Source: Plicaturopsis crispa FD-325 SS-3
Taxonomy: Eukaryota > Basidiomycota > Agaricomycetes > Amylocorticiales > Amylocorticiaceae
DNA: 64,000 nucleotides
Reading direction: 5' to 3'
NCBI GenBank assembly: GCA_000827205.1
Contig: KN832560.1
Coordinates: 1,082,743 to 1,146,742, forward strand
The position numbers and the translations under genes are program-made. Shown one piece after another: positions 2,634 to 17,491 of the stretch (positions within the stretch are counted from its first letter, which is position 1; each line of letters starts with the position of its first letter). The notes under the pieces are model-generated. The model was not told the origin of the DNA, made no database searches, and was given only the letters and a program-made list of their open reading frames with translations.

Positions 2634-2644
2634 ATTGAAAATGG

Positions 2645-2652
2645 TATATAAA
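2645..2652 (+). promoter_or_regulatory. TATA box of the TBP gene, copy A
   Basis: TATATAAA lies 121 bases before the TBP ATG. The same element, TATATAAG, stands at the same distance in copy B (14242). The 5' leader contains pyrimidine-rich tracts typical of fungal transcription starts. A TATA box ahead of the gene for TBP itself suits autoregulation, but that is inference. Confidence 0.7.
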
Positions 2653-2772
2653 GAGCAAGTTTGCCCTCAATCTTCTTCCACTTTTCCCCCGTTCCCACGC
2701 CTGTGCACGCCCGCCACCGATTTTTTTTTCTGGTTCCACTTGCAATTTACTCTGCAATCTACAATCGGTGCC

Positions 2773-3920
2773 ATGTCGTTCGCACTCCCCGCCCGTCAAG
2801 TAACGTTTGGACGTTCGCATGTGCCTCTGCAACAGCAGCAACAGCAACAACAGTTCCAACAGCAGCAGCAGCAGTCTGCGTACCAGCAGCAGCCGCCCCC
2901 GCCACACGGCCTCGCACTCCCATCCAGCTCCAACAACAACGCATTCGCAGGGCCTTCGAACCTGTCGCTCCCAGGGCCAGCGCCCTCAAATCCATACCAA
3001 TCCCCCCAATACTCCCAGTCGTCATCGCAGTCGCCCACTTCGCAATCGACTCCCGCGACGAGCATCCAATCGGCGCCGGCGGGTCCTTCTACCCCTAAAC
3101 CGTCGTCGGTGCCATCCACACCCGTACCGCTCACGCTCGAGCAGCAGCACATCACTGCTGTTGAGGGCATTGTGCCGACGCTCCAAAACATCGTCGCCAC
3201 CGTCAACCTCGACTGCCGCCTCGACCTCAAAACCATCGCCCTGCACGCACGGAACGCAGAATACAACCCCAAGGTTTGTATTTATTGATATTTTCTATGT
3301 GAATGTTCGAACTTCTATCGTTCGTCCATTCCATATTATAGCGTTTCGCCGCCGTCATTATGCGCATTCGTGACCCCAAGACCACCGCCCTCATCTTTGC
3401 GAGCGGCAAGATGGTGGTCACGGGTGCCAAGTCGGAGGACGACTCGCGCCTGGCGTCGCGCAAGTACGCGCGCATCGTCCAGAAGCTTGGCTTCGACGCC
3501 AAGTTTAGCGAGTTCAAGATTCAGAACATCGTCGGCAGTTGCGACGTCAAGTTCCCCATTCGCTTGGAGGGACTGGCGTACAGCCACGGACAGTTCAGCA
3601 GTTATGAACCCGAGGTGCGTCGCTCGCAGTCTTCTGCCGTAGCTGTTATCTGATGTTTGTCTTTTAGCTTTTCCCTGGTTTGATCTATCGCATGATCAAG
3701 CCCAAGGTCGTGCTCCTCATCTTCGTCTCCGGCAAGATCGTCCTCACTGGCGCCAAGGTAAATACGTTCATCATATCTTTTCTTTCGACGCCGGGTCTTT
3801 GTTCAGTGGATTAGCACATCCGCTTACACCTTTTTGTTGCGCCACCGTCAGGTCCGCGAGGAGATCTACACGGCGTTCAACACCATCTACACGGTGCTCT
3901 GCGAATTCCGCAAACCGTGA
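2773..3920 (+). CDS. SPT15: TATA-box binding protein (TBP), intact copy
   Basis: Four exons (about 2773-3273, 3342-3614, 3668-3757, 3852-3920) encode about 310 residues. Residues 1-115 are a low-complexity tail with poly-Gln tracts and Ser/Pro/Gln-rich stretches. The conserved 180-residue saddle follows: first repeat from [15 protein letters not shown] through [19 protein letters not shown], second repeat from [19 protein letters not shown] through [13 protein letters not shown] and [14 protein letters not shown], ending [19 protein letters not shown] is the DNA-bending core of TFIID and also serves RNA polymerases I and III. Introns are 68, 53 and 94 bases with good consensus ends. This is the only complete TBP in the window, because the second copy lacks part of the first repeat. 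The coding part lies wholly left of the assembly gap. Confidence 0.95.
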
Positions 3921-3927
3921 TCGCCGT

Positions 3928-4437
3928 NNNNNNNNNNNNNNNNNNNNNNNNNNNNNNNNNNNNNNNNNNNNNNNNNNNNNNNNNNNNNNNNNNNNNNNNN
4001 NNNNNNNNNNNNNNNNNNNNNNNNNNNNNNNNNNNNNNNNNNNNNNNNNNNNNNNNNNNNNNNNNNNNNNNNNNNNNNNNNNNNNNNNNNNNNNNNNNNN
4101 NNNNNNNNNNNNNNNNNNNNNNNNNNNNNNNNNNNNNNNNNNNNNNNNNNNNNNNNNNNNNNNNNNNNNNNNNNNNNNNNNNNNNNNNNNNNNNNNNNNN
4201 NNNNNNNNNNNNNNNNNNNNNNNNNNNNNNNNNNNNNNNNNNNNNNNNNNNNNNNNNNNNNNNNNNNNNNNNNNNNNNNNNNNNNNNNNNNNNNNNNNNN
4301 NNNNNNNNNNNNNNNNNNNNNNNNNNNNNNNNNNNNNNNNNNNNNNNNNNNNNNNNNNNNNNNNNNNNNNNNNNNNNNNNNNNNNNNNNNNNNNNNNNNN
4401 NNNNNNNNNNNNNNNNNNNNNNNNNNNNNNNNNNNNN
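3928..4437. other. Assembly gap (510 N)
   Basis: A run of 510 undetermined bases follows directly after the TBP stop region. Sequence resumes at 4438 in the middle of TBP exon 2. The flanks repeat each other (3471-3927 versus 4438-4895), differing by one T in an intron poly-T run. This pattern is typical of two contig ends that overlap but were scaffolded apart. Confidence 0.95.
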
Positions 4438-4895
4438 CGCATCGTCCAGAAGCTTGGCTTCGACGCCAAGTTTAGCGAGTTCAAGATTCAGAACATCGTC
4501 GGCAGTTGCGACGTCAAGTTCCCCATTCGCTTGGAGGGACTGGCGTACAGCCACGGACAGTTCAGCAGTTATGAACCCGAGGTGCGTCGCTCGCAGTCTT
4601 CTGCCGTAGCTGTTATCTGATGTTTGTCTTTTAGCTTTTCCCTGGTTTGATCTATCGCATGATCAAGCCCAAGGTCGTGCTCCTCATCTTCGTCTCCGGC
4701 AAGATCGTCCTCACTGGCGCCAAGGTAAATACGTTCATCATATCTTTTTCTTTCGACGCCGGGTCTTTGTTCAGTGGATTAGCACATCCGCTTACACCTT
4801 TTTGTTGCGCCACCGTCAGGTCCGCGAGGAGATCTACACGGCGTTCAACACCATCTACACGGTGCTCTGCGAATTCCGCAAACCGTGATCGCCGT
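4438..4895 (+). repeat. Repeated 3' part of TBP (exon 2 end, exons 3 and 4), probable assembly duplicate
   Basis: These 458 bases repeat 3471-3927 with one single-base length difference in the poly-T of intron 3. They encode the end of TBP exon 2, exon 3 and exon 4 with the stop at about 4886-4888, then run on into the true 3' flank shared with copy B. Copy B has this segment only once, at the spacing expected without the extra copy. So I read it as an artefact and not as a partial tandem gene duplication, though a true duplication cannot be excluded from sequence alone. Confidence 0.8.
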
Positions 4896-5108
4896 CGTCG
4901 CTTGGCCCGTCCCACTCGCGTTCGTCGCTCTGGGCCCCAAAATATCATGTATCGTGGTTGCGGGGCGGTTCGCTACGGACGGTCATCCTGCCTGCGTACG
5001 CTCCTCGCCGTCCTCTGATCGTGTCGTTTGTTCTATTATACTTAAATTTCTCTTTTCTCTCTGGTCCTCTCACGCATACTCCATCACTCCCCTACCCTCC
5101 ATCCATTC

Positions 5109-5114
5109 AATAAA
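5109..5114 (+). terminator. Likely poly(A) signal of TBP copy A
   Basis: AATAAA lies about 225 bases after the TBP stop and just before a run of CATA repeats. The same hexamer and context are kept in copy B at 15543-15548, so both lie between TBP and the WRS start. Confidence 0.5.
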
Positions 5115-5379
5115 GACATACATACATACATACAGTACAACATTCGTGGTTTAGTTGGTGTTTTACTTTTTTTTGCACCTTGTCCGTAGCCCATCACAAT
5201 TGTACCGATATTCGCATCATCCGTCGACGTGTCAGTTGCCTCCGAGATTGAAAGATAAGATGAAAAGATTTTCGAGTGAACGGCATCGACTTTGACTCAT
5301 CTCGTTACTCCTCATTCGCAAACCGACGTCGATCTCGCAAAGTCCAGCGTAACGAACCGTCGCCCAATTTTGTACGAAA

Positions 5380-5925
5380 ATGTCTGGTCCTCCGGTCGTA
5401 GTCCCCGATCTGCTCTCGACGAGCGTCGCAGCGCCAGCGGCAGTCGACACGATAACACAAACGCTTGAAAACACCACCCTGACTCCGTGAGTACACCCCG
5501 TCCGCCATACTACTCCGCACTCTAACGTCGCACTCTCTAGAGAGCCTTCCGCCGCCCCCACCCCCGCGCCCGAATCCGTCAAGCCCGCAGACGCCCAAGC
5601 CCAGGTCGTCACGCCCTGGGACGTGCAGGGCTCCGTCTCGTCCGACGGCAAGCAGCTCGCGATCGACTACGACAAGCTGATCGAGCAGTTCGGCACGCGC
5701 AGGGTCGACGAGGCGCTGCTGCAGCGCTTCGAGCGCGTGACGGGGCACAAGCCGCATGTGCTCCTGCGCCGGGGCGTCTTCTTCTCGCATCGGTGCGTCC
5801 TGTGCGCTGTGCTTGGGGGATTGGGTGCTGACTTGGATTGAAGAGAGTTTGACAAGATTTTGGATCGGTATGAGCAGGGGAAGCCGTTTTATCTCTACAC
5901 GGGACGAGGGCCGAGCAGCGATAGC
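5380..5925 (+). pseudogene. Truncated tryptophanyl-tRNA synthetase, copy A
   Basis: Two exons and the start of a third match the intact WRS at 15810: [19 protein letters not shown], then [11 protein letters not shown] through [23 protein letters not shown], then [20 protein letters not shown]. Homology ends at GPSSDS, immediately before the residues that form the ATP-binding HIGH motif, and the sequence then passes into unrelated GC-rich repeat. All catalytic parts are absent. The promoter and start are kept, so a short transcript may still be made. The truncation is shared in position with the edge of the segmental duplication, so it is likely a duplication breakpoint and not a later deletion. 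Confidence 0.9.
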
Positions 5926-6744: not shown

Positions 6745-7960
6745 AATATATGTCTTTTTCGGAGAAAACCCGTCCGCCCCCGTAGAAAAATGAACGCCGC
6801 GCAACGAATACGGCGGTCCAGCCTGTCTTATAAGCAATTCTCGCCTCGTCTACGATGTCCACACCATACGCCATTGCTCTGACTGCTCTCCGCGACCTTT
6901 CGAAAAAAATTGCCATGAAATGACGGATCGCGCAAATATGTAAATCGAGACTTGCACGGCGAACTCGCACAACAGCGGCCTGGATAGAACGGCGCTGGAC
7001 GCGCGCAGACGTTCCCCGTCGCATGCGAGGAGAGCAAGGAGACAGATACAAAACGTGCAAGCCAAAAACAAACTAACGGTCAAAATCCATCCGCCGCCCG
7101 CAGAAAAACGGATCTGACACGAGGAATACGGACCGCGCCGCGCACCCATCAACACGCCTATGCTCGTTGAGAGTGCCCTGGCCGATCCCCGCCAGTTTGA
7201 CGGCCGCGGGGCACTTTCGAAAAAATCGCCATGAAATCTCAAAAAACGCGAAAACGCGTAAATGAGGAATTTCACGGCGAGTTTGTACAATCACCGCGAC
7301 AGAAATACGGCACCGGACGCGCGTACCCCATCCCCGTCCTGTGCGAGAGAGGCAGAAACCTGGTAGCAAAATGCGGGCGCCAAAATCAAATAAACGGTCA
7401 GAATGTATCGGCCGCCCGAAGAAAAACGGGTCTGACACAACGAATACGGACCGCGCCGCGCACACATGCACACGCCCATGCTCTGTGAGAGTTCACTGAC
7501 CGCGCCCCGCAAGTTTAGACGGCCGCGGTAAGCTTTTGAAGAAAGTCACCATGAAATCTCGAAAACGCGAAAACACGTAAATCAAGAATTTCACGGCGAG
7601 TTTGTACGATCACCGTGTCGTAGATACGGCACCGGACGCGCGTACCCCGTCCCCTTCCTACACCAGCGAGGTAGAAACCTGGGAGCAAAATGCGGGCGCC
7701 AAGATCAAATGAACGGTCAGAATATATCTCCCGTCCGCAGAGAAATCCGCGTCGCAAGGCGAGCAAGACACTCGCGGCCACCCCACGACCACGCACGATA
7801 CCGGATACGATGCTAGAACCAACTATGGATGATCTAGAGCATCTCCGCGACGTTTGGAGAAAACGCCGTGAAAACGACGTAGCCGCGGGAAAGTGAATCT
7901 CGCGAATTTCTCCGCGAATCCCGCAGCCAGCCGCGGTGAAGACACACGGACTACCCCACA
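6745..7960. repeat. Four-unit direct tandem repeat, period about 316-320 bases
   Basis: The anchor GCCATGAAAT occurs at about 6912, 7228, 7548 and (as GCCGTGAAAA) 7865, and the block GAAAAACGG with AATACGG occurs near 6785, 7100, 7420 and, decayed, 7740. The units share GCGAAAACGCGTAAAT, TTCACGGCGAGTTTGTAC and GGTCAAAAT-type blocks. Units 2 and 3 are the most alike; units 1 and 4 are more diverged. No reading frame is kept across units, so this looks like non-coding satellite-like DNA. Confidence 0.8.
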
Positions 7961-8599: not shown

Positions 8600-11590
8600 G
8601 CCTAGTTGGAAGGACGCGCGCGCCACCTGCATTCTCTCACGATTTACGCGCTAGCTTTGTGGTCGCTGCAGCATCGTTATTTCGGGTCGCGTTTCGAGGG
8701 TGGAGGCGGCCTTGGGATCCCCGCGCAGGGTGCAAAAATTAGTGGCGTACGCGGGAGCAGACGCGGGGAACTCACCACTGCGCGGCACGGCCAATGGCGT
8801 GACGCCGCTTGGACATATTCCTGTGACCTCTGCAAATTAATACTGGGCAGAGACTACATCCGGCGAGCGGGCGCCCGTCTCCCTGCGTCAGGCCTGGCCG
8901 CCTTCGAGCTCCTTCACTCTGGCGCTATCCGTTTCGTCCGTCTGTAGACTGTTTCGGCCGGGGAACACGTCGTCGGGTATGCGCTTTGCGGGCATTGCGT
9001 CGTAACGTAGGCTGCGTATGTATAGACGGTGTCGCTGCTAGTAGCGGGCGGCGGGTACGGATGCTACTTCCAGGTATCTAAATGGCGCGAAGATGCGGAC
9101 AGGGATGAAGAGTTGGCCCGAGGCCGCGCGAATCAAGGCGCCGTGCCAGAGCGCCAAGACCTCGTAGCCTCGTGTCCAAACCCTGGATACACAGGCCACT
9201 GGTCCGCTACAGACTGAAGCACGGAAGAGATCCAATTTCATCAAGATATGAGCTCGGTTAGATGAGATGGAACTCACTGGTGATTTTCGTCACTGGTAAA
9301 AGTCTGTGCATGCGAGTTTTACTTAGCGCACGGGAACATGTCCAAATATGAAACACAAAACCATGCAGTATTGAATCAAGTTTGCGGATTCAGGAGGACT
9401 GTAGCGACAGAGACCTCGTAGAGCAAGAGATTTGACGATGAGCGTTCAAATTTGAAGCTCAGAGAAATTCGACGCGTCGGTTTCATGGATTCTCGTTTCT
9501 TCAACTTCAAGTTCCCGCGTCTCGTTCTTTCCTCTTGCTCTCGAGTTCAGATAGCTTCAGATATGCTTATGCTAAGTGCTATCATTATCGCACTATCCAG
9601 ATATCTGGATCTACTACCACACATATTGTTGATTACACCGTGTCCAAGTCCGTCTGCCAGTAAGATTTCCTTCCATTCAGTGTTCTCGGCGTATCTTTCT
9701 TGACAACTTTATCTGCGCATCGCGTGTTACTCCTTCCTGCAGATATTGCCGCATTATTCAAGATAAAATCATGAGATACATGATTCTCATACCTGGCAAT
9801 GATCGCAGCTCACGCTGCCATGAAGTACTATCTGACAGAATTCCTGTGAACCGCGCGGCACAGCCAGAGGACTGAGTGCTTCAAGCCTCATTCAAGATCG
9901 CCGTGATCAGCACATATGCTCTAGGTAGGTTTGCATTCTACCGTATCAGATTTACCACTAATGCTATATTTTATGATTGTACTGCGGCACCTTATCTAGC
10001 AAATCATGAACCATTTGAAGGGACAAGAAATATCTTGTCCGCCGGCAAATAATCGAGCTGGCTCGGCGTGTTGGACTGGTAAGTGCTATAGTACTATCAG
10101 TGGTTTTACTATTAGGAGAACAGCTAAGCCCGCTGCCTATGCACTGCTCAGCTCTAGCTATTTTACCCTACCGTGAAGATGGTTCTGGCAACACAACATC
10201 GGTGCAGTCCGTATCTTGATCACAGTTTCAGACCATTCATTCTTCAAAAAATGCACCCTGTAGTTTCAGCTGCTACAGAACACTGAGGGCTGATCCCTAG
10301 ACTATGGTATCTTACATTCACTGATCACTGAATCTAAGGATGGATAGCAAGCGTAGTATACAATGTCTGATGTTCAAGATCTAGAACAGTGAACGGAACC
10401 AGAATACCAATTGCTTCTTCGGGTGTGGCGGAGGTTGCAGGGTCATTGCACACTGCGCCAAACCGGGAGAAGCAATTGGAATCACTTACTTACGCACCAT
10501 CAATTCACAATTTGCAGTTCAATACAAGGCCGTCCACAGCACGGCACACTGCACTGCTTGTAATCCTGTCCTCAGGCTGCAGCAAGGGGCCACCACTGAG
10601 ATTAGTATATATCTTCCTATGCCTGTGCGAGGTAAATAAAATACAGTGCTAGGAGAAGGGACTCACACTGCACGGCGGAAGGAGTTTGGCAAAGTGTAAT
10701 AGAATTGTGTGACATGCCGAAAGGTGCATCAGCCAATTTCGGTTGATCACCACTGTCATGACATTTGGTTTGCGGCGTCACAACTTACGTGCACGGTGAC
10801 CTGGTGCCGCCGCAGAAGCACCTAAATTTAAAAGTGCCTTCGGGTAATGCTTGGACTCCTGGCATATATATGCTTCATTATTTTCTTTGCAATTTGCCCG
10901 CTCACCTTTCCTCTAGGCGTCCTAATGCCACTCCGCCTCCCCATCCTCCCCATCGTAACCTGTCAGGCACTGTGTTGTGCCAGTCAATATCTCGCACTGT
11001 ACAACGGACACAAATTTGTTGCTCTTCACCTCACATTGATGGTCAGTTTTCACCTGTCGCATTTTTTGGATGTTGTAGGCTTGTAGCAGTCGCGCTGACC
11101 GCCATCGATGCAGGAGGAGAATGAGAACGGGCAGCGCCGCGCGCGGCGCGGCACGCGAGTTACATCTCCGATTGGCGTCCGATACTCCGCGGCGTCCGCC
11201 ACTTCTTTTCCATCTTGACTCTCGATTTCATTCTGCGACGATGCATGGCACTTTTTGCTACCGCGGCGATGAGATTCTGGGCAGCGCAAGGCTCGCAAGT
11301 GAGCTGGGATGATGAATGAGTCGGTGCGAAACCTTCTCTATTCTTACTGCGCGCATGCGAATAACTAATCCCCAATTTCACTTGTGTTTGTTCGCGCAGA
11401 CTCGTTGGTTTCAATCGCTAGCTCAACATGTCCTAGCTTATAGCCTGGACTATTTCATAGTCTCTGTGTGACGGGCGCGAATTTTCTGGTTGAACTGCAC
11501 CACTATCCCCGCGCACGAGCGACAACAATCGCTACGGCCTCGAGTCGTCATGCTGCTGGCTTCGGGCATCATTTTAGGATTTTTGCCCCA
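8600..11590. other. Gene-poor spacer between the two duplication copies, AT-richer part
   Basis: After about 9250 the base composition drops from GC-rich to near 45 percent GC and frames become short and broken. No transposase, reverse transcriptase or host protein motif could be read on either strand. A TATATATG run at about 10863-10870 precedes a pyrimidine-rich stretch and could be a promoter for the transcript proposed downstream. Short ORFs (10389-10652, 10765-11124) have no recognisable features. It may be decayed mobile DNA, but nothing shows this directly. Confidence 0.45.
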
Positions 11591-11664
11591 TCCCGCAAAC
11601 TGATGTGCGTATGCCTCTCCTGTCGTCGATTCTTCCTTGGCTAATTCCGTCTCATTTAGACGAA

Positions 11665-11910
11665 AATACGCATCCCGCTGCGCGGGATTTTGGCCAGCGA
11701 GCGCGCGAGGCACGAGCGCGTTCGCGTCTCGTTACACGGATAAAGCCTGTCTCCTGGTGGTTGTGGATCCCGGTAAGTTGCTTCTTCCTATTCTCTTTGT
11801 GAGTGCACTCGGCTAATTTCGGCTATTTTGTACGAGAAGACACATCCCGCTGCGCGGGATTTTGGCCAGCGAGCGCGCGAGGCACGAGCGCGTTCGCGTC
11901 TCGCTACAAG
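11665..11910 (+). repeat. Two-copy exon-like repeat, about 60 bases each, 175 bases apart
   Basis: Copies at about 11669-11731 and 11844-11906 are almost identical: CATCCCGCTGCGCGGGATTT, then GGCCAGCGAGCGCGCGAGG and ACGAGCGCGTTCGCGTCTCG. Each contains a short perfect stem (CCCGC TGC GCGGG). Each is preceded by an intron-like acceptor and followed by a GTAAGT donor. In one frame both read THPAARDFGQRAREARARSR; the second copy meets a stop soon after. They look like the founding or upstream members of the hairpin array that follows. Confidence 0.7.
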
Positions 11911-12032
11911 GATGAAGCCTATGTTGGTGATCTCGTAGCCGTAGGTGGCTCGTGTTCGCTGTGGTGACGATGTAAGTATCGTCTTTTCCTCGTTGTTATT
12001 TCCCGTCGGCTAATTTTCTTGTGTCCCAACGA

Positions 12033-13290
12033 TAAAGTCTATATAGAAATGAATCCCGCGAGCGAGCGCGCAGCGCTCGCGCCCTTCCTGCATGGAAGTA
12101 GTACGTTGCTCCGTGTTGCCATCGTATGTGGGCGTCATGCTGACTGATCTGTGCAGATTGTCCGGGATGATGAAGTATATATAGAAATGAATCCCGCGAG
12201 CGAGCGCTGCGCGCTCGCGCCTCTTCCTGCATCGCAGTACGTTTCTCCGCATCCCCACCGTATGTGCGTGACGCTGACCGATCTTTGCAGTCTGTTCAGG
12301 CCAGGATGACGAAGTATATCTATAAATAAATCCCGTGAACGAGCGCGCAGCGCTCGCCTCTCCTCTTCCATGCCAGTACGTCGCTCCCCATCCGCATCGT
12401 ATATGCGCATGATGCTGACCGATCTCTGCAGATCATCCAGGCCAGGATGACGAAGTATATATAGAAATGCGTCCCGCGAGCGTGCGTGCAGCGCTCGCGG
12501 GTCTTCCAACTTCGCAGTACGTCTCTATGCCTCGCCTTTGCACGCGTGGACGGTGCTAATTGGCGTATACAGGTTGACAAAGTATATACAGAAACGCGTC
12601 CGGCGAGCAGCGCGTAGCGCTCGCGTGTCCTTCCTGCTGCCACCAGCCTGTGCCGCGTACCGCCCCTCCTAGTCGTCGCGTTTGGACATCCTCCCGGCCG
12701 ACAATGTCTATATGGATCGAAATCCGCAGAGCGAGCGCGTAGCGCTCGCCCATTCCCTCTGCTCTCTGTCTCCGGCGCCACCTCTCCTCGTCTTCACGTT
12801 CTCACACCCCGCTGCATGACAAAGTCTATATGGATCGAAATCTCGCGAGCGGGCGCGTAGCGCTCGCGCATCCTTTTTGCCTTCGCCGCCCATCCTTCCT
12901 GCCTTCGCCGCCTCGCCTTGCCCCGCTTGTCTACACACTCGCACATGATGGAGTCCATATGCATCGAAGTCCCGCGAGCGAGCGCGTAGTGCTCGCGCAT
13001 GCTTTCTTCATTTGCCGCCCATCCTTGCCGCTCTCTGTGTCCAACACCGCCCCTCCTCGTCTCCGCCTTTCCACATTTCGCTTCAAGACGAAGTCTATAT
13101 GGATCGAAGTCCCGCGAGCGGGCGCATTTCCTCCTTGCCGTCGGTTTCCCGCCCTACAGATCGACTTCCCGCGAGCGCGCGCACGGTGTTCTTTCTGCCG
13201 CCCTCGAGCCCCTCCTCAATGCTCGCATCTCTCCTGGTCTCCGCCTTCGCATATGGATCGACTTCCCGTGCGTGTTCGCGCATTGCTCGT
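12033..13290 (+). repeat. Tandem array of about 11 hairpin units, period about 117-141 bases
   Basis: Cores start near 12033, 12172, 12311, 12452, 12579, 12703, 12820, 12950, 13090 and, decayed, 13157 and 13251. The consensus is AAGTATATATAGAAATGAAT or AAGTCTATATGGATCGAAAT, then CCCGCGAGC and the palindrome GCGAGCGC-GYA-GCGCTCGC. Stem changes tend to keep pairing: unit 2 has loop TGC with the same arms, and units 7 and 8 have single changes that leave G-T pairs. Units 1-4 are each followed by a 54-56 base intron-like segment; units 6-11 have lost it and are C-rich between cores. All units point the same way. Confidence 0.85.
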
Positions 13291-13969
13291 CGCCGTCATT
13301 TCCCTGCCCGGCCTCCCTTCATCGCCGTCCTCGTGCCCTCTGTCCTGGAGGTCGTACCTCCCGGTGAATTATCCCTGCGGTCTTTGTAAGTCATCACCGG
13401 CACATTCCTTCCAGTACCCAAGTCTCACTCTGGCTATGTTTTCGCGCTGTAGGTGAGACATCGCTTGCGTCGCTCGGACGGAGATAGTCTCCTCGCGGCG
13501 GCATGTTCTTCGGTAAGTCGTTTATCGTTACGTGTCTGTGTTAATGGCTCAATATATCCCGTTTAGACGATTCAACTCATGAATAAACGGAGCGTTGGGA
13601 AAGCCGCGGCCTTTTTACTGCGGTATTGCTCTCAAGACACGGTACGTTCTGTGCTCTTACAGTGTCTGCAAAGTCGTTTCTGACTGATTGCGTTTACGTG
13701 TAGTTGTGTGGTTCCCGCGCGGCCCGCATTTCTTTTTCGATCCCGTTAAGCACGCGTTACGATCGCCAAGCCCATTCAAAAACGGCCATTAGCAATGTGT
13801 TCCCGCGAGCGCGTTGCGTGTTTCGTTCTCGCGTACCCGAACTTTTATGTATTTCGGTGAGCTCCACGAGTCTCGATTAATTTGACGACTGACGGACTTC
13901 ACAGTTGTGTATCCAATGCGAGCGGAGTGTATTTTCGCACTGTAAGGATTTCGAGTAGAACTAGAGACA

Positions 13970-14012
13970 CGCTGCGCGGTGGGCCCTCCATGTGAGGGCC
14001 CACCGCGCAGCG
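13970..14012. repeat. Perfect 19-base inverted repeat (hairpin)
   Basis: CGCTGCGCGGTGGGCCCTC at 13970-13988 is followed by a 5-base loop and its exact reverse complement at 13994-14012. It sits at the end of the hairpin-exon region and about 220 bases before duplication copy B. An AT-rich stretch follows. It could end the proposed transcript, form a cruciform, or be a remnant of a foldback element. Confidence 0.85.
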
Positions 14013-14241
14013 ATTACAAAAAATAGATACTTGCGCAGGAACCATACTTATTTTTTTCCGGCCCTAAACTTCGAAATGACTTGGAATCGACGAGCGACGA
14101 GGAGGAGGTGAGGCGGCGAGATTAGATTAGATCTGAAAATTCAAAGCTGTTGGACAACAAATGTCAACAAAGACGTTGACTGACGACGTGACCTTCGTCC
14201 TCGTCCCACCACCACCACCATGTACTCTCGATTGAAAACGG

Positions 14242-14249
14242 TATATAAG
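14242..14249 (+). promoter_or_regulatory. TATA box, TBP copy B
   Basis: TATATAAG lies 117 bases before the copy B ATG (14366), the counterpart of 2645-2652. Because it is kept, the broken TBP copy may still be transcribed. Confidence 0.65.
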
Positions 14250-14365
14250 GAGCAAACTTGCCCTCAATCTTCTTCAACTTTCGCCCACTTCCCACGCCTG
14301 TGAAAGCCCGCCACCGACTTTTTTTGCTTCGCTTGCAATTTACTCTGCAATCTACTACCGGCGCC

Positions 14366-15325
14366 ATGTCTTTCGCCCTCCCCGCCCGTCAAGTAACGTT
14401 CGATCGTTCGCATGTGCCGCTGCAACAGCAGCAGCAACAACAGCAGTTCCAACAGCAGCAGCAGCAGTCCGCGTACCAGCAGCAGCCGTCCCCGCCACAC
14501 GGCCTCGCCCTCCCATCCAGCTCCAACACCAACGCTTTCGTAGGTCCTTCAAAACTGTCGCTACCAGGGCCAGCGCCCTCAAATCCATACCAATCCCCTC
14601 AATACTCCCAGTCGTCATCGCAGTCGCCCACTTCGCAGTCGACACCCGCGACGAGCTTCCAATCGGCGCCGCAGGTTCCTGAACAGCCGTCGGTGCCCGT
14701 ACCGCTCACGTTCCAACTTCTATCGTTCGTCCATTCCATATTATAGCGTTTCGCCGCCGTCATCATGCGCATTCGTGACCCCAAGACCACCGCCCTCATC
14801 TTTGCGAGCGGCAAGATGGTGGTCACGGGTGCCAAGTCGGAGGACGACTCGCGCCTGGCGTCGCGCAAGTACGCGCGTATCGTCCAGAAGCTTGGCTTCG
14901 ACGCCAAGTTTAGCGAGTTCAAGATTCAGAACATCGTCGGCAGTTGCGACGTCAAGTTCCCCATTCGCTTGGAGGGACTGGCGTACAGCCACGGACAGTT
15001 CAGCAGTTATGAACCTGAGGTGTGTCGATCGCAGTTTTCTGCCGTAGCTTTGTTCTGACGTTTGCCTCTAGCTTTTCCCCGGTTTGATCTATCGCATGAT
15101 CAAGCCCAAGGTCGTGCTCCTCATCTTCGTCTCCGGCAAGATCGTCCTCACTGGCGCCAAGGTAAATACGTTCTTCATATCTTTTCCTTTCGACGCCGGG
15201 TCTTTGTTCAGTGGATTAGCACATCCGCTTACACGTTTTTGTTGCGCCACCGTCAGGTCCGCGAGGAGATCTACACGGCGTTCAACACCATCTACACGGT
15301 GCTCTGCGAATTCCGCAAACCGTGA
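14366..15325 (+). pseudogene. TBP copy B with internal deletion
   Basis: The poly-Gln N-terminal tail and exons 2-4 are kept, but a 170-base deletion removes the last 46 codons of exon 1 and the 5' half of intron 1 including its donor. The missing residues include [15 protein letters not shown], the start of the first saddle repeat. Translation from 14366 now runs across the junction into former intron and stops at about 14744. Exon 2 onward is open from an internal ATG at 14765 ([13 protein letters not shown]), so a protein lacking about 50 residues of the first repeat is possible but would hardly fold as TBP. Exons 3 and 4 are undamaged, which suggests the loss is young. Confidence 0.88.
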
Positions 15326-15809
15326 TCGCCGTCGTCGCTTGGCCCGTCCCACTCGCGTTCGTCGCCTTGGGCCCCAAAATATCATGTATCACGGTTGCGG
15401 GGCGGTTCGTTACGGACGGTCATCCTGCCTGCGTACGCTCCTCGCCGTCCTCTGACTGTCGACTGTTCTATTATACTTAAATTTCTCTTTTTCTCTGGTT
15501 CTCTCACGCATACTCCATCATTCCCCTACCCTCCATCCATCCAATAAAGACATACATACATACAGTACAACATTCGTGGTTTAGTTGGTGTTTTACTTTT
15601 TTTTGCACCTTGTCCGTAGCTCATCACAATTGTACCGATATTCGCATCATCCGTCGACGTGTCAGTTGCCTCCGAGATTGAAAGATAAGATGAAAAGATT
15701 TTCGAGTGAACGACATCGACTTTGACTCATTTCGTTACTCCTCACTCGCAAACCGACGTCGATCTCGCAAAGCCCAGCGTAACGAACCGTCGCCCAATTC
15801 CGTACGAAA

Positions 15810-17491
15810 ATGTCTGGTCCTCCGGTCGTAGTCCCCGATCTGCTCTCGACGAGCGTTGCAGCGCCAGCGGCAGTCGACACGATAACGCAAACGCTCGAAA
15901 ATGTCACCCTGACTCCGTGAGTACGCCTCGCCCGCCCTACTACGCAGCACCCTGACATCGCTCTCTCAGAGAGCCTTCCGCCGCCCCCACCCCCGCGCCC
16001 GAATTTGTCAAGCCCGCAGACGCACAAGCCCAGGTCGTCACGCCCTGGGACGTGCAGGGCTCCGTCTCGTCCGACGGCAAGCAGCTCGCGATCGACTACG
16101 ACAAGCTGATCGAGCAGTTCGGCACGCGCAGGGTCGACGAGGCGCTGCTGCAGCGCTTCGAGCGCGTGACGGGGCACAAGCCGCATGTGCTCCTGCGCCG
16201 GGGCGTCTTCTTCTCGCATCGGTGCGTCCTGTGCGATCAATGCTCGGGGGATCGGTGCTGACTTGGGTTGAAGAGAGTTTGACAAGATCTTGGATCGGTA
16301 TGAGCAGGGGAAGCCGTTTTATCTGTACACGGGGCGAGGGCCTAGCAGCGATAGCATGCATTTAGGGCATATGGTGCAGTTCATTTTCACAAAGTGAGTC
16401 GCACTACTTTCTGTTCGATCTCCTTATCTCACCGCAGCGAAGATGGTTGCAGGACGTCTTCGATGTCCCCCTCGTCGTTCAAATGACAGGTGTGTCTTAT
16501 TCTATCCTTTGTGCCGCGTGTATCTAATACATCGACAGACGACGAGAAGTTCTTGTTCAAGCACGAGCTGAAGCCTGAGCAGACGCGCGCCTTCGCCTCG
16601 CTGAACGCACGAGATATCATCGCGGTCGGCTACGACCTCAATCGCACGCTCATCTTCAGCAACTACGACTACATGGGCGGGGCCTTCTACCGCAACGTCT
16701 CCAAAATATCCCGCCAGATCCCGTACAACCAGGCGAAGGCGACGTTCGGCTTCACCGACAGCGACAACATCGGGAAGATCCACTTCGCCGCGATCCAGGC
16801 CGCGCCGGCGTTCGCGAACTCGTTCCCGCAGATATTCGGCGACGCGACGGGCATCCCGTGCCTCATCCCGTGCGCGATCGACCAGGACCCGTACTTCCGC
16901 CTCACGCGCGACGTCGCGCAGAAGCTCAAGTACCAGAAGCCCGCGCTGCTGCACTCGCGGTTCTTCCCCGCGCTGCAGGGCCCGCAGACGAAAATGAGCG
17001 CATCGGACGCGAACTCGAGTATCTTCATGACGGATACGCCGAATCAGATTAAGAATAAGATTAACAAGCACGGGTTTTCGGGAGGGAAGGAGACAGAGGA
17101 GGAGCACCGGAAGTTTGGGGGCGATACAGACGTCGATGTCAGTTATCAATACCTGAGTTTCTTCCTGGAGGACGACGAGGAGCTCGCAAGAATTGGCGAG
17201 GTTCGTTGACTTCGCATATTGACCACTACATATAGTCAAACTGACCACGCGTTGCCTTATAGGAGTACCGCGCAGGGACGTTGTTGACTGGCCAGCTGAA
17301 GGGAAAGTGCATCGCGCTTCTACAAAAATTCGTCAAAGATTTCCAAGAAGTACGCAGCAGCCTCACTCATTTTTTCGCATTATCCTGACTAGTTGGCGCA
17401 GGCAAGAGCAAAGGTTACGGATGAAATGGTCAAGGAATTTATGGACGGCACGCGGAAGATTGTGCCCACATACGGGAAGAAAGCAGCATAA
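15810..17491 (+). CDS. WRS1: Cytosolic tryptophanyl-tRNA synthetase, intact copy
   Basis: The gene charges tRNA-Trp. Exon 1 (15810 to about 15917) reads [19 protein letters not shown]; exon 2 ends GVFFSHR; exon 3 carries the first signature [14 protein letters not shown] (HIGH-type HLGH); a short exon holds [15 protein letters not shown]; a long exon carries [15 protein letters not shown], the substrate pocket [18 protein letters not shown], and the second signature [13 protein letters not shown] (KMSAS, the usual eukaryotic variant). Two more exons end with [14 protein letters not shown] and TAA at 17489. Domain order and length (roughly 420-430 residues) fit fungal cytosolic enzymes. The first three exons belong to the segmental duplication, the rest is unique. 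It is convergent with RAD18, with 163 bases between stops. Confidence 0.95.

Follow-up and report, generated by a model that had tools for sequence, protein, structure and literature searches.

A candidate family of spliced, hairpin-bearing and probably non-coding RNA genes in Plicaturopsis crispa, with one member between two TBP copies

The window analysed here is a 64,000-nucleotide stretch of the genome of Plicaturopsis crispa FD-325 SS-3 (C7:1082743-1146742 in an assembly of 33.2 Mb and 49 contigs). TBP is present in it twice, at 2634-5925 and 14231-16355, with the two copies 90-97% alike, and between them lies an array of repeated units that combine short introns with short GC hairpins. 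An initial annotation of this stretch had described an array of hairpin cassettes. The array was confirmed; it is not unique, and would belong to a multi-locus gene family. The reading favoured here, with moderate confidence, is that the region at ~11.0-14.1 kb is one predicted member of a family of RNA genes whose products are spliced, structured and probably non-coding.

Repeat finding in the window recovered eight copies of a 53-nt unit, hereafter the B unit (at 12031, 12169, 12308, 12449, 12700, 12818, 12947 and 13087, the last one without its 3' arm), and shorter decayed copies at 13154 and 13251. A covariance model built from such units scored nine units at 41-75 bits and the copy at 13251 at 13 bits, and found an extra B unit at 12575 that is not among the eight repeat-finding copies. 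In total, the window array comprises eight well-kept and three decayed B units (12031-13282), in agreement with the approximately eleven direct units first described. The spacing given for them, 117-141 bases, was reproduced for the well-kept units (~118-141), but the decayed copies are spaced by 57 and 97. Tandem Repeats Finder reported only part of the array (12035-12498, period 139). Two A-type units were located upstream of the B array, at 11636 and 11808, by repeat finding and with a second model (R2). Two models served to predict introns: a strict one, which requires the donor GTRNG[TCA], the branch site CTRAY, the acceptor YAG and a length of 45-80 nt, and a relaxed one. The predicted parts of the locus are the following:

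11042-11113, plus strand: predicted 5' intron with weak donor GTCAGT and branch GCTGAC (relaxed model)
11114-11298, plus strand: 5' exon with motif CTCCGCGGC at 11185 (local alignment to locus C1b, on another contig)
11605-11659, plus strand: intron, 55 nt (strict and relaxed models)
11660-11772, plus strand: A exon 1, with hairpin 1 (11672-11688, ATCCCGC-TGC-GCGGGAT) followed by the TTTGGCCAGC linker (model R2, 77 bits)
11773-11839, plus strand: intron with weak acceptor (relaxed model)
11840-11971, plus strand: A exon 2, with hairpin 1 at 11844-11860 (model R2, 71 bits)
11972-12037, plus strand: intron, 66 nt, with weak acceptor (relaxed model)
12038-12100, plus strand: B exon 1, with hairpin 2 (12062-12080), GCGAGCGC-GCA-GCGCTCGC (repeats, covariance model, pair counts)
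12101-12156, plus strand: cassette intron 1, 56 nt (strict and relaxed models)
12157-12236, plus strand: B exon 2, 80 nt (covariance model, relaxed intron model)
12237-12290, plus strand: cassette intron 2, 54 nt (strict and relaxed models)
12291-12375, plus strand: B exon 3, 85 nt (covariance model, relaxed intron model)
12376-12431, plus strand: cassette intron 3, 56 nt (strict and relaxed models)
12432-12516, plus strand: B exon 4, 85 nt, with a fold z-score of -4.0 (covariance model, relaxed intron model, folding)
12517-12572, plus strand: cassette intron 4, 56 nt (strict and relaxed models)
12573-13385, plus strand: long exon with intron-less B units at 12575, 12699, 12817 and 12946 and decayed ones at 13087, 13154 and 13251 (repeats, covariance model, relaxed intron model)
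13386-13452, plus strand: 3' intron 1 (relaxed model)
13513-13566, plus strand: 3' intron 2 (relaxed model)
13642-13703, plus strand: 3' intron 3 (strict and relaxed models)
13857-13904, plus strand: 3' intron 4 (strict and relaxed models)
13954-14094, plus strand: conserved 3' module with a 19 bp hairpin at 13970-14012, fold z -7.1 (84-87% identity to three other loci in the genome)

The 3' limit of the 5' exon (11298) was set by eye, and the relaxed model places no intron there. At locus C1b the homologous 5' exon is likewise preceded by an intron.

The presence of an individual 54-56 base intron in each of the first four units was confirmed, and all four cassette introns carry the GTACGT donor, the GCTGAC or GCTAAT branch site and the CAG acceptor that had been noticed initially. 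Four introns follow the array on its 3' side, as claimed; on the 5' side the relaxed model gives four instead of three, with a weak donor in the first and weak acceptors in the last two. The exons had been described as stem-loops; the stem-loop occupies only 17-30 nt of an 80-85 nt exon. Within the 3 kb of the array the strict model found seven introns on the plus strand and none on the minus strand (0.8 in shuffles), the relaxed model twelve and none, and perfect stems of at least 7 bp numbered eight, against 1.4 in shuffles. For comparison, the full 64-kb window, in which both strands carry genes, gave 36 vs 38 introns by strand.

Successive DNA searches starting from the array located no fewer than 14 places with this build in the one genome, the window included, a number that is a lower bound because the family searches score only the best candidates. 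They lie on contig C1 at 2.117M (C1a), 3.135M (C1b), 1.234M, 1.244M (C1c) and 1.256M (C1d), on contig C9 at 1.213M (C9a), 1.251M (C9b) and 1.303M (C9c), and on C7 (window), C28 (101.9k), C8 (420k), C22 (243k), C6 (703k) and C12 (862k). The sequence was read at 13 of the 14 places, C1:1.234M being located only, and C9c, a near-duplicate of C9a (L052 and L012, respectively; 1307 bp at 99%, spanning the last units and the 3' end), was excluded from the stem and relaxed-intron counts and from those of the GTCC[CG]GCGA[AG]C motif and the Sm-like site. Local identities between loci are mostly ~65-90%. Local alignments, both those between A and B units and those of C1d with C6 and C12, connect the classes, as do two shared motifs and the 3' module. 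The order of parts is short introns and 5' exon, A exons with hairpin 1, B or C exons with hairpin 2, more introns and, at four loci, the 3' module. The parts vary from locus to locus: only A units were seen in C1a, and no intact A unit in C22.

Several parts recur in diverged copies. The motif GTCC[CG]GCGA[AG]C was found 20 times on the plus strand and never on the minus strand, in 7 of 12 loci, with no match in the window control. Of the 13 loci, 7 have a single plus-strand copy of the 5' exon motif CTCCGCG[GA]C, ~50-75 nt past an acceptor (in C22 and C12 as judged by eye). The 3' module is present at four places in the genome, each time ending an array, and its hairpin measures 18-19 bp in the four loci; at the 3' ends of C9c and C22 a different long hairpin is seen by eye, and then a T run. 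Hairpin 1 reads ATCCCGC-TGC-GCGGGAT in the window and GTCTCGC-TAC-GCGAGAC in C1c, C1d, C6 and C12; A-type exons also have the conserved linker RATTTTGGCCAGC. Hairpin 2 is GCGAGCGC-GNA-GCGCTCGC in C7 and C1b, GCGAGGCCC-GNA-GGGCCTCGC in C1c, C1d, C6 and C12, and GCAGCGC-GNA-GCGCTGC in C22. With one mismatch allowed, GATTTTGGCCAGC had 72 matches in the genome vs 9 for its reversed control (12 inside arrays, 60 outside). The core GCGCGNAGCGC was no commoner in the genome than its reversed control (223 vs 282), and a single hairpin core is therefore uninformative. Exact-pattern scans of viral and prokaryote collections gave no matches.

Some irregularities were observed among these loci. Isolated pattern matches lie at C2:2.24M, C5:1.50M and C9:1.17M. 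A stretch upstream of the part shared by C9a and C9c is inverted between the two loci. Three tandem array copies ~10 kb apart occupy C1:1234300-1259800; behind two of them come the 3' module and then one gene that is present in a copy at each; at C1:1.234M the genome search found no match to the 3' module. At C28:101.9k (L011) the array apparently starts, by eye, within the frame of a kelch-like gene, which then breaks off.

The strand asymmetry of the introns was also observed across the family. Over 11 loci the strict model predicted 37 introns on the plus strand and 4 on the minus strand, compared with 4.8 in first-order shuffles; repeats inside one locus are not independent for such counts. 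Longer stretches of C1c, C1d, C6 and C12 gave 6, 5, 8 and 8 on the plus strand vs 1, 1, 2 and 0 on the minus strand. Plus exceeded minus at every locus, with just 1-3 introns at C28, C9a, C9b and C9c, and by eye the introns of different loci appear diverged. In silico, donor, branch site and acceptor stand in order on one strand, which is the arrangement that marks predicted introns of the major spliceosome.

Hairpins were analysed at the level of stems, pairs and folds. Ten stretches, picked because they bear arrays, contain 62 perfect stems of at least 7 bp in 21.9 kb, against 6.3 for the summed shuffle means; the remaining 47.5 kb of the window contain 11. A covariance analysis of the unit stems had been proposed in the initial annotation, and it revealed two-sided changes in both hairpins. 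For hairpin 1 (15 copies, 14 distinct) they affect 4 of 7 pairs, with 12 such cells vs 4.0 in shuffles, and 89.8% of the cells are paired vs 81.9% in shuffles; in slid controls the pairing drops to 11-56%. For hairpin 2 (62 copies, 31 distinct) they affect 6 of 7 pairs, a number reached by 7 of 500 shuffles, with 50 two-sided cells vs 18.9 in shuffles and 91.2% of cells paired vs 70.5% (34-52% in slid controls). The mispairs of hairpin 2 on the plus strand, which is the intron strand, are 17 G-U, 2 A-C and 20 others (14 G-U and 2 A-C among distinct copies), and those of the 3' hairpin are 3 G-U and no A-C. The loop of hairpin 2 is GCA in 37 copies, GTA in 16, GAA in 4 and another sequence in 5, so that 57 of the 62 are GNA. 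RNA folding gave z-scores of -7.1 for the 3' end, -4.0 for B exon 4, -2.8 for one C6 stretch and -2.3 for one C1c stretch.

The pairing percentages describe well-kept copies, because copies with a missing arm or an altered loop length were for the most part omitted. The hairpin 1 count leaves out L010 4740 and 4589, L012 and L049 (changes of loop or arm length), and seven of the 22 copies in its mispair count, repeats with identical letters, were not entered in the 15-copy pair count. That of hairpin 2 leaves out four copies with a 4-nt loop (L012, L052, L060 and L011), two fused copies (one each in L012 and L060), L085 2047 and those decayed units in which no loop position could be recognised (window 13154 and 13251, L012 4217-4269, L052 1742 and L049), and takes in the decayed window unit 13087. 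The stem counted is the one that brackets the GNA loop, chosen after L009 5178-5231 was seen to have changed both arms. The automatic RNAalifold structure of the B unit, on whose register model R1 was built, was discarded for these counts; it lies in another register and shows no two-sided change.

The neighbouring loci C1c and C1d allowed a comparison of constraint. In their alignment, the two copies agree at 55 of 57 bases in hairpin 2 (three units, selected for being intact in C1c; Fisher p 4e-5) and at 39 of 41 in the 3' hairpin (p 0.0015), compared with 780 of 1022 (76%) in other exon sequence and 263 of 347 in intron bodies. GT/AG are identical at 22 of 24 (p 0.054), the other two being alignment gaps at an acceptor with the sequence CAG in both copies. 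Gene conversion could account for the identity of hairpin 2, because it is repeated, and less easily for that of the single 3' hairpin. The stretch downstream is 93% identical, so recent conversion is possible there.

Strand-specific introns, a repeated architecture and compensated stems together argue for the hairpin-bearing, probably non-coding spliced transcript that the initial annotation had put forward; the stems may act in RNA or, alternatively, as palindromes in DNA. The amplification of an exon-intron cassette, also proposed there, agrees with the one-strand introns, the 13 other places of the same build and the pairwise-compensated stems, but an intron comes after only 4 of the 11 B units. 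Under the family reading, RNA polymerase II would transcribe the array locus and the major spliceosome would excise the 50-65 nt introns, so that the mature RNA would present many equal hairpins in a row; a hairpin-binding protein could occupy these repeatedly, the RNA acting as scaffold or sink, and the terminal hairpin may protect or form the 3' end. Arrays would have grown by unequal exchange of cassettes. The loci would have multiplied by DNA-level duplication, because the copies keep their introns. A scaffold role as a multivalent hairpin platform deserves perhaps half the confidence given to the family itself. We propose only tentatively that the arrays represent a novel type of RNA gene in fungi, namely a dispersed multigene family in which the spliceosome would assemble tandem hairpin exons, partly with a terminal hairpin, into a multivalent platform, with the stems re-invented per locus and the loop and splice signals fixed.

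A number of observations weigh against the family reading. Transcription and splicing are themselves predictions from sequence, and the donor list of the relaxed model (83 introns on the plus strand and 7 on the minus strand, 12 loci) was composed after the array introns were known, which makes the strict count the fairer. In the window an intron directly follows 4 of the 11 B units and the other seven are intron-less. Four of the ten loci are poor in perfect stems (C28 with two; C9a, C9b and C8 with one each). The covariation is among paralogous copies of one genome, with many cells not independent; in hairpin 1 the four two-sided pairs were matched by 99 of 500 shuffles, and the pair types are fewer than in shuffles. 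Its mispairs on the plus strand (no G-U, 6 A-C and 4 others) speak against an RNA stem. Fold z-scores are weak in four of five window exons (-0.37, -1.11, -0.63 and -0.87), in one C1a stretch (-0.59) and in one of the two C6 stretches (+0.18). The C12 array has a spliced stop-free run of 308 codons that was matched by 1 of 200 shuffles, and few of 200 matched those of C1c (6), C1b (7), C7 (9) and C1a (12). Finally, the role as scaffold or sink is a guess.

The main rival is a DNA-level palindrome element, in which GC palindromes with a C(GNA)G loop would extrude hairpins or be bound by a protein dimer, and would spread or undergo conversion as DNA repeats, the introns being relics of an older transcription unit. 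GCGNAGC is an unusually stable DNA mini-hairpin, and this core is present in the C7, C1b and C22 units, in line with the prevalence of GNA loops in hairpin 2. Two-sided changes fit palindromes too, and the A-C mispairs of hairpin 1, with no G-U, point the same way. Nevertheless, one-strand splice sites persist in diverged copies, the unpaired linker after hairpin 1 is conserved too, and G-U is favoured over A-C on the intron strand both in hairpin 2 (17 vs 2) and in the 3' hairpin (3 vs 0). We consider this explanation unlikely.

Another possibility is that the arrays are non-coding cargo or a subterminal region of a DNA transposon (e.g. Plavaka) and were spread by its transposase. A Plavaka transposase frame (PF18759, E 1.4e-15) precedes the C1b array (C1:3.135M), a frame near C9a weakly matches DDE_Tnp_4 (E 0.009, below the cut-off), and C9a and C9c have 1307 bp in common at 99%. 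Against this, the frames beside C1a and C8 that look Plavaka-like by eye are without a Pfam match, inspection by eye recognised no transposase among the frames left of the window array, for which no Pfam search was made, and the local identities between loci are mostly ~65-90%. Comparison with the minus strand at 13 loci showed local palindromes, a 42-bp inverted repeat at C9b and the inverted stretch of C9a/C9c only. Terminal inverted repeats bracketing the array were found at none of the 13 loci, in stretches of 2.4-9.9 kb, so that distant ends could be missed. We regard transposon cargo as quite unlikely.

That the arrays are pseudogenes of a former low-complexity repeat protein is improbable, although long open frames give it some ground. 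Spliced stop-free runs span 118-308 codons over 12 loci; at 4 of the 12 fewer than 10 shuffles in 200 match them, at seven others at least 21 in 200, and an open frame of 237 aa covers 12743-13456. However, the length of a unit is not divisible by three, and the window exons between cassette introns are 80, 85 and 85 nt long, so that frames shift between units. In spliced translations of C6 and C12 the same motifs are read, by eye, in three frames, and the stem changes alter residues yet retain pairing. A Pfam search with three open frames from the window array, two on the plus strand and one on the minus strand, found no family at E up to 0.1. A protein-coding reading was rejected on account of the shifting frames and the lack of a Pfam domain, with the long stop-free runs at four loci as a caveat. 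These results suggest that the array transcripts are probably non-coding. Least probable of all is that the array serves as a long 5' leader for the gene behind it, which is TBP copy 2 in the window, a WD40 gene at C1:3.13M and a gene present in duplicate at C1:1.247/1.259M: all four module loci do have, by eye, a same-strand ATG-started frame ~155-275 bp downstream, but a TATA-like box at 14242 belongs to the window TBP copy itself, the gene downstream of C22 points toward the array (by eye), and the terminal hairpin with the following sequence would rather resemble a 3' end.

The family reading was compared with known RNA classes. No Rfam family scored over its gathering cut-off in the window or in the stretches of the 14 loci, and at E up to 1 the region 10800-14200 gave one match, far under its cut-off. 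The A units may resemble Sm-class small nuclear RNAs (snRNAs) in having a hairpin and then a RAUUUUGG-like site, and differ from them in being predicted spliced exons. The Sm-like site RAU3-6GR was counted 30 times on the plus strand and 5 times on the minus strand vs 7.9 in shuffles (12 loci); these copies are not independent, and none occurs in C22. As a yardstick, two upstream elements were derived from the six U2 genes of this genome that score over the Rfam cut-off. No clear U2-type promoter element was found in 13 loci, only scattered matches with 4-5 mismatches on both strands. The sequence (C/G)(A/T)TTACAAAAA(A/C)TAGATA just past the terminal hairpin is similar to the 3' box of metazoan snRNA genes, an idea that was dropped, as by eye no counterpart lies downstream of the six U2 genes and the arrays show no clear U2 promoter element. 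A hairpin does lie downstream of each U2 gene, in L087 with the outer letters GCTGCGC/GCGCAGC as in the array 3' hairpin (by eye); being found in both U2 genes and arrays, a 3'-end hairpin does not separate them.

Among long RNAs, the Xist A-repeat and roX carry tandem stem-loops separated by linkers and are thought to bind protein multivalently. The arrays are alike in their tandem stem-loops, but at several loci their repeats are split by spliceosomal introns of their own, and no chromosome-wide role is suggested. Introner elements are near-identical introns put into unrelated genes, whereas the arrays amplify intron and exon together. The closest comparison is Firre, a non-coding RNA with a repeated domain (RRD) in many of its exons (7 of 13 in human, 11 of 23 in mouse; PMC4820808), a build that the arrays match in silico, in the window at 4 of 11 B units. 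Firre differs in being one locus with a mostly local repeat, while the arrays stand at no fewer than 14 places, with introns of 50-65 nt and short GC hairpins as the repeated domain. The introns of Firre are large. The repeat-domain non-coding RNAs of known role that we can name are all animal.

Non-coding transcripts exist in basidiomycetes, as stated in PMC6525899 and PMC8113380, a paper on brown-rot fungi and a review of fungal long non-coding RNAs, in which a term search showed no hairpin-array or tandem-exon family. In the paper on brown-rot fungi 76 and 85% of the long non-coding RNAs are intergenic. Among the matches listed from the open-access literature of PMC, no title or abstract opening describes such a family. 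If the family reading is right, it would be an independent fungal case of modular RNA growth through exon-intron cassette amplification, and the array RNA, provided that it is truly made, would stand out among fungal RNAs as one built from repeats. With such arrays it can also be tested whether RNA function or DNA palindromes lie behind the covariation of hairpins and the conservation of splice signals.

Other observations concern the U2 genes and the surroundings of the arrays. Introns in fungal snRNA genes are known (Rhodotorula). The six U2 genes (L087-L092, at C2:3.29M, C9:159k, C3:1.276M, C2:564k, C2:1.358M and C12:479k) all contain, by eye, an insertion that looks like a short spliceosomal intron, in an identical position directly behind CTTAATAG (CTTTATAG in L090); its sequence has diverged, and the stem of the downstream hairpin differs between copies. 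A WD40 gene follows C1b, and at C1:1.247M and 1.259M the gene after the 3' module is duplicated, as TBP is in the window. Downstream of the C9b array (L060, 395-929) there is a perfect 42-bp inverted repeat with ~450 bp between its arms, probably a small inverted-repeat element. The TBP duplication takes in part of the next gene, and TBP copy 1 contains an assembly gap (N, 3928-4437); one and the same piece of TBP flanks the gap left and right, which may point to a misassembly. Between the TBP copies, at 7061-7728, a 319-bp unit is repeated about twice in tandem with 84% matches.

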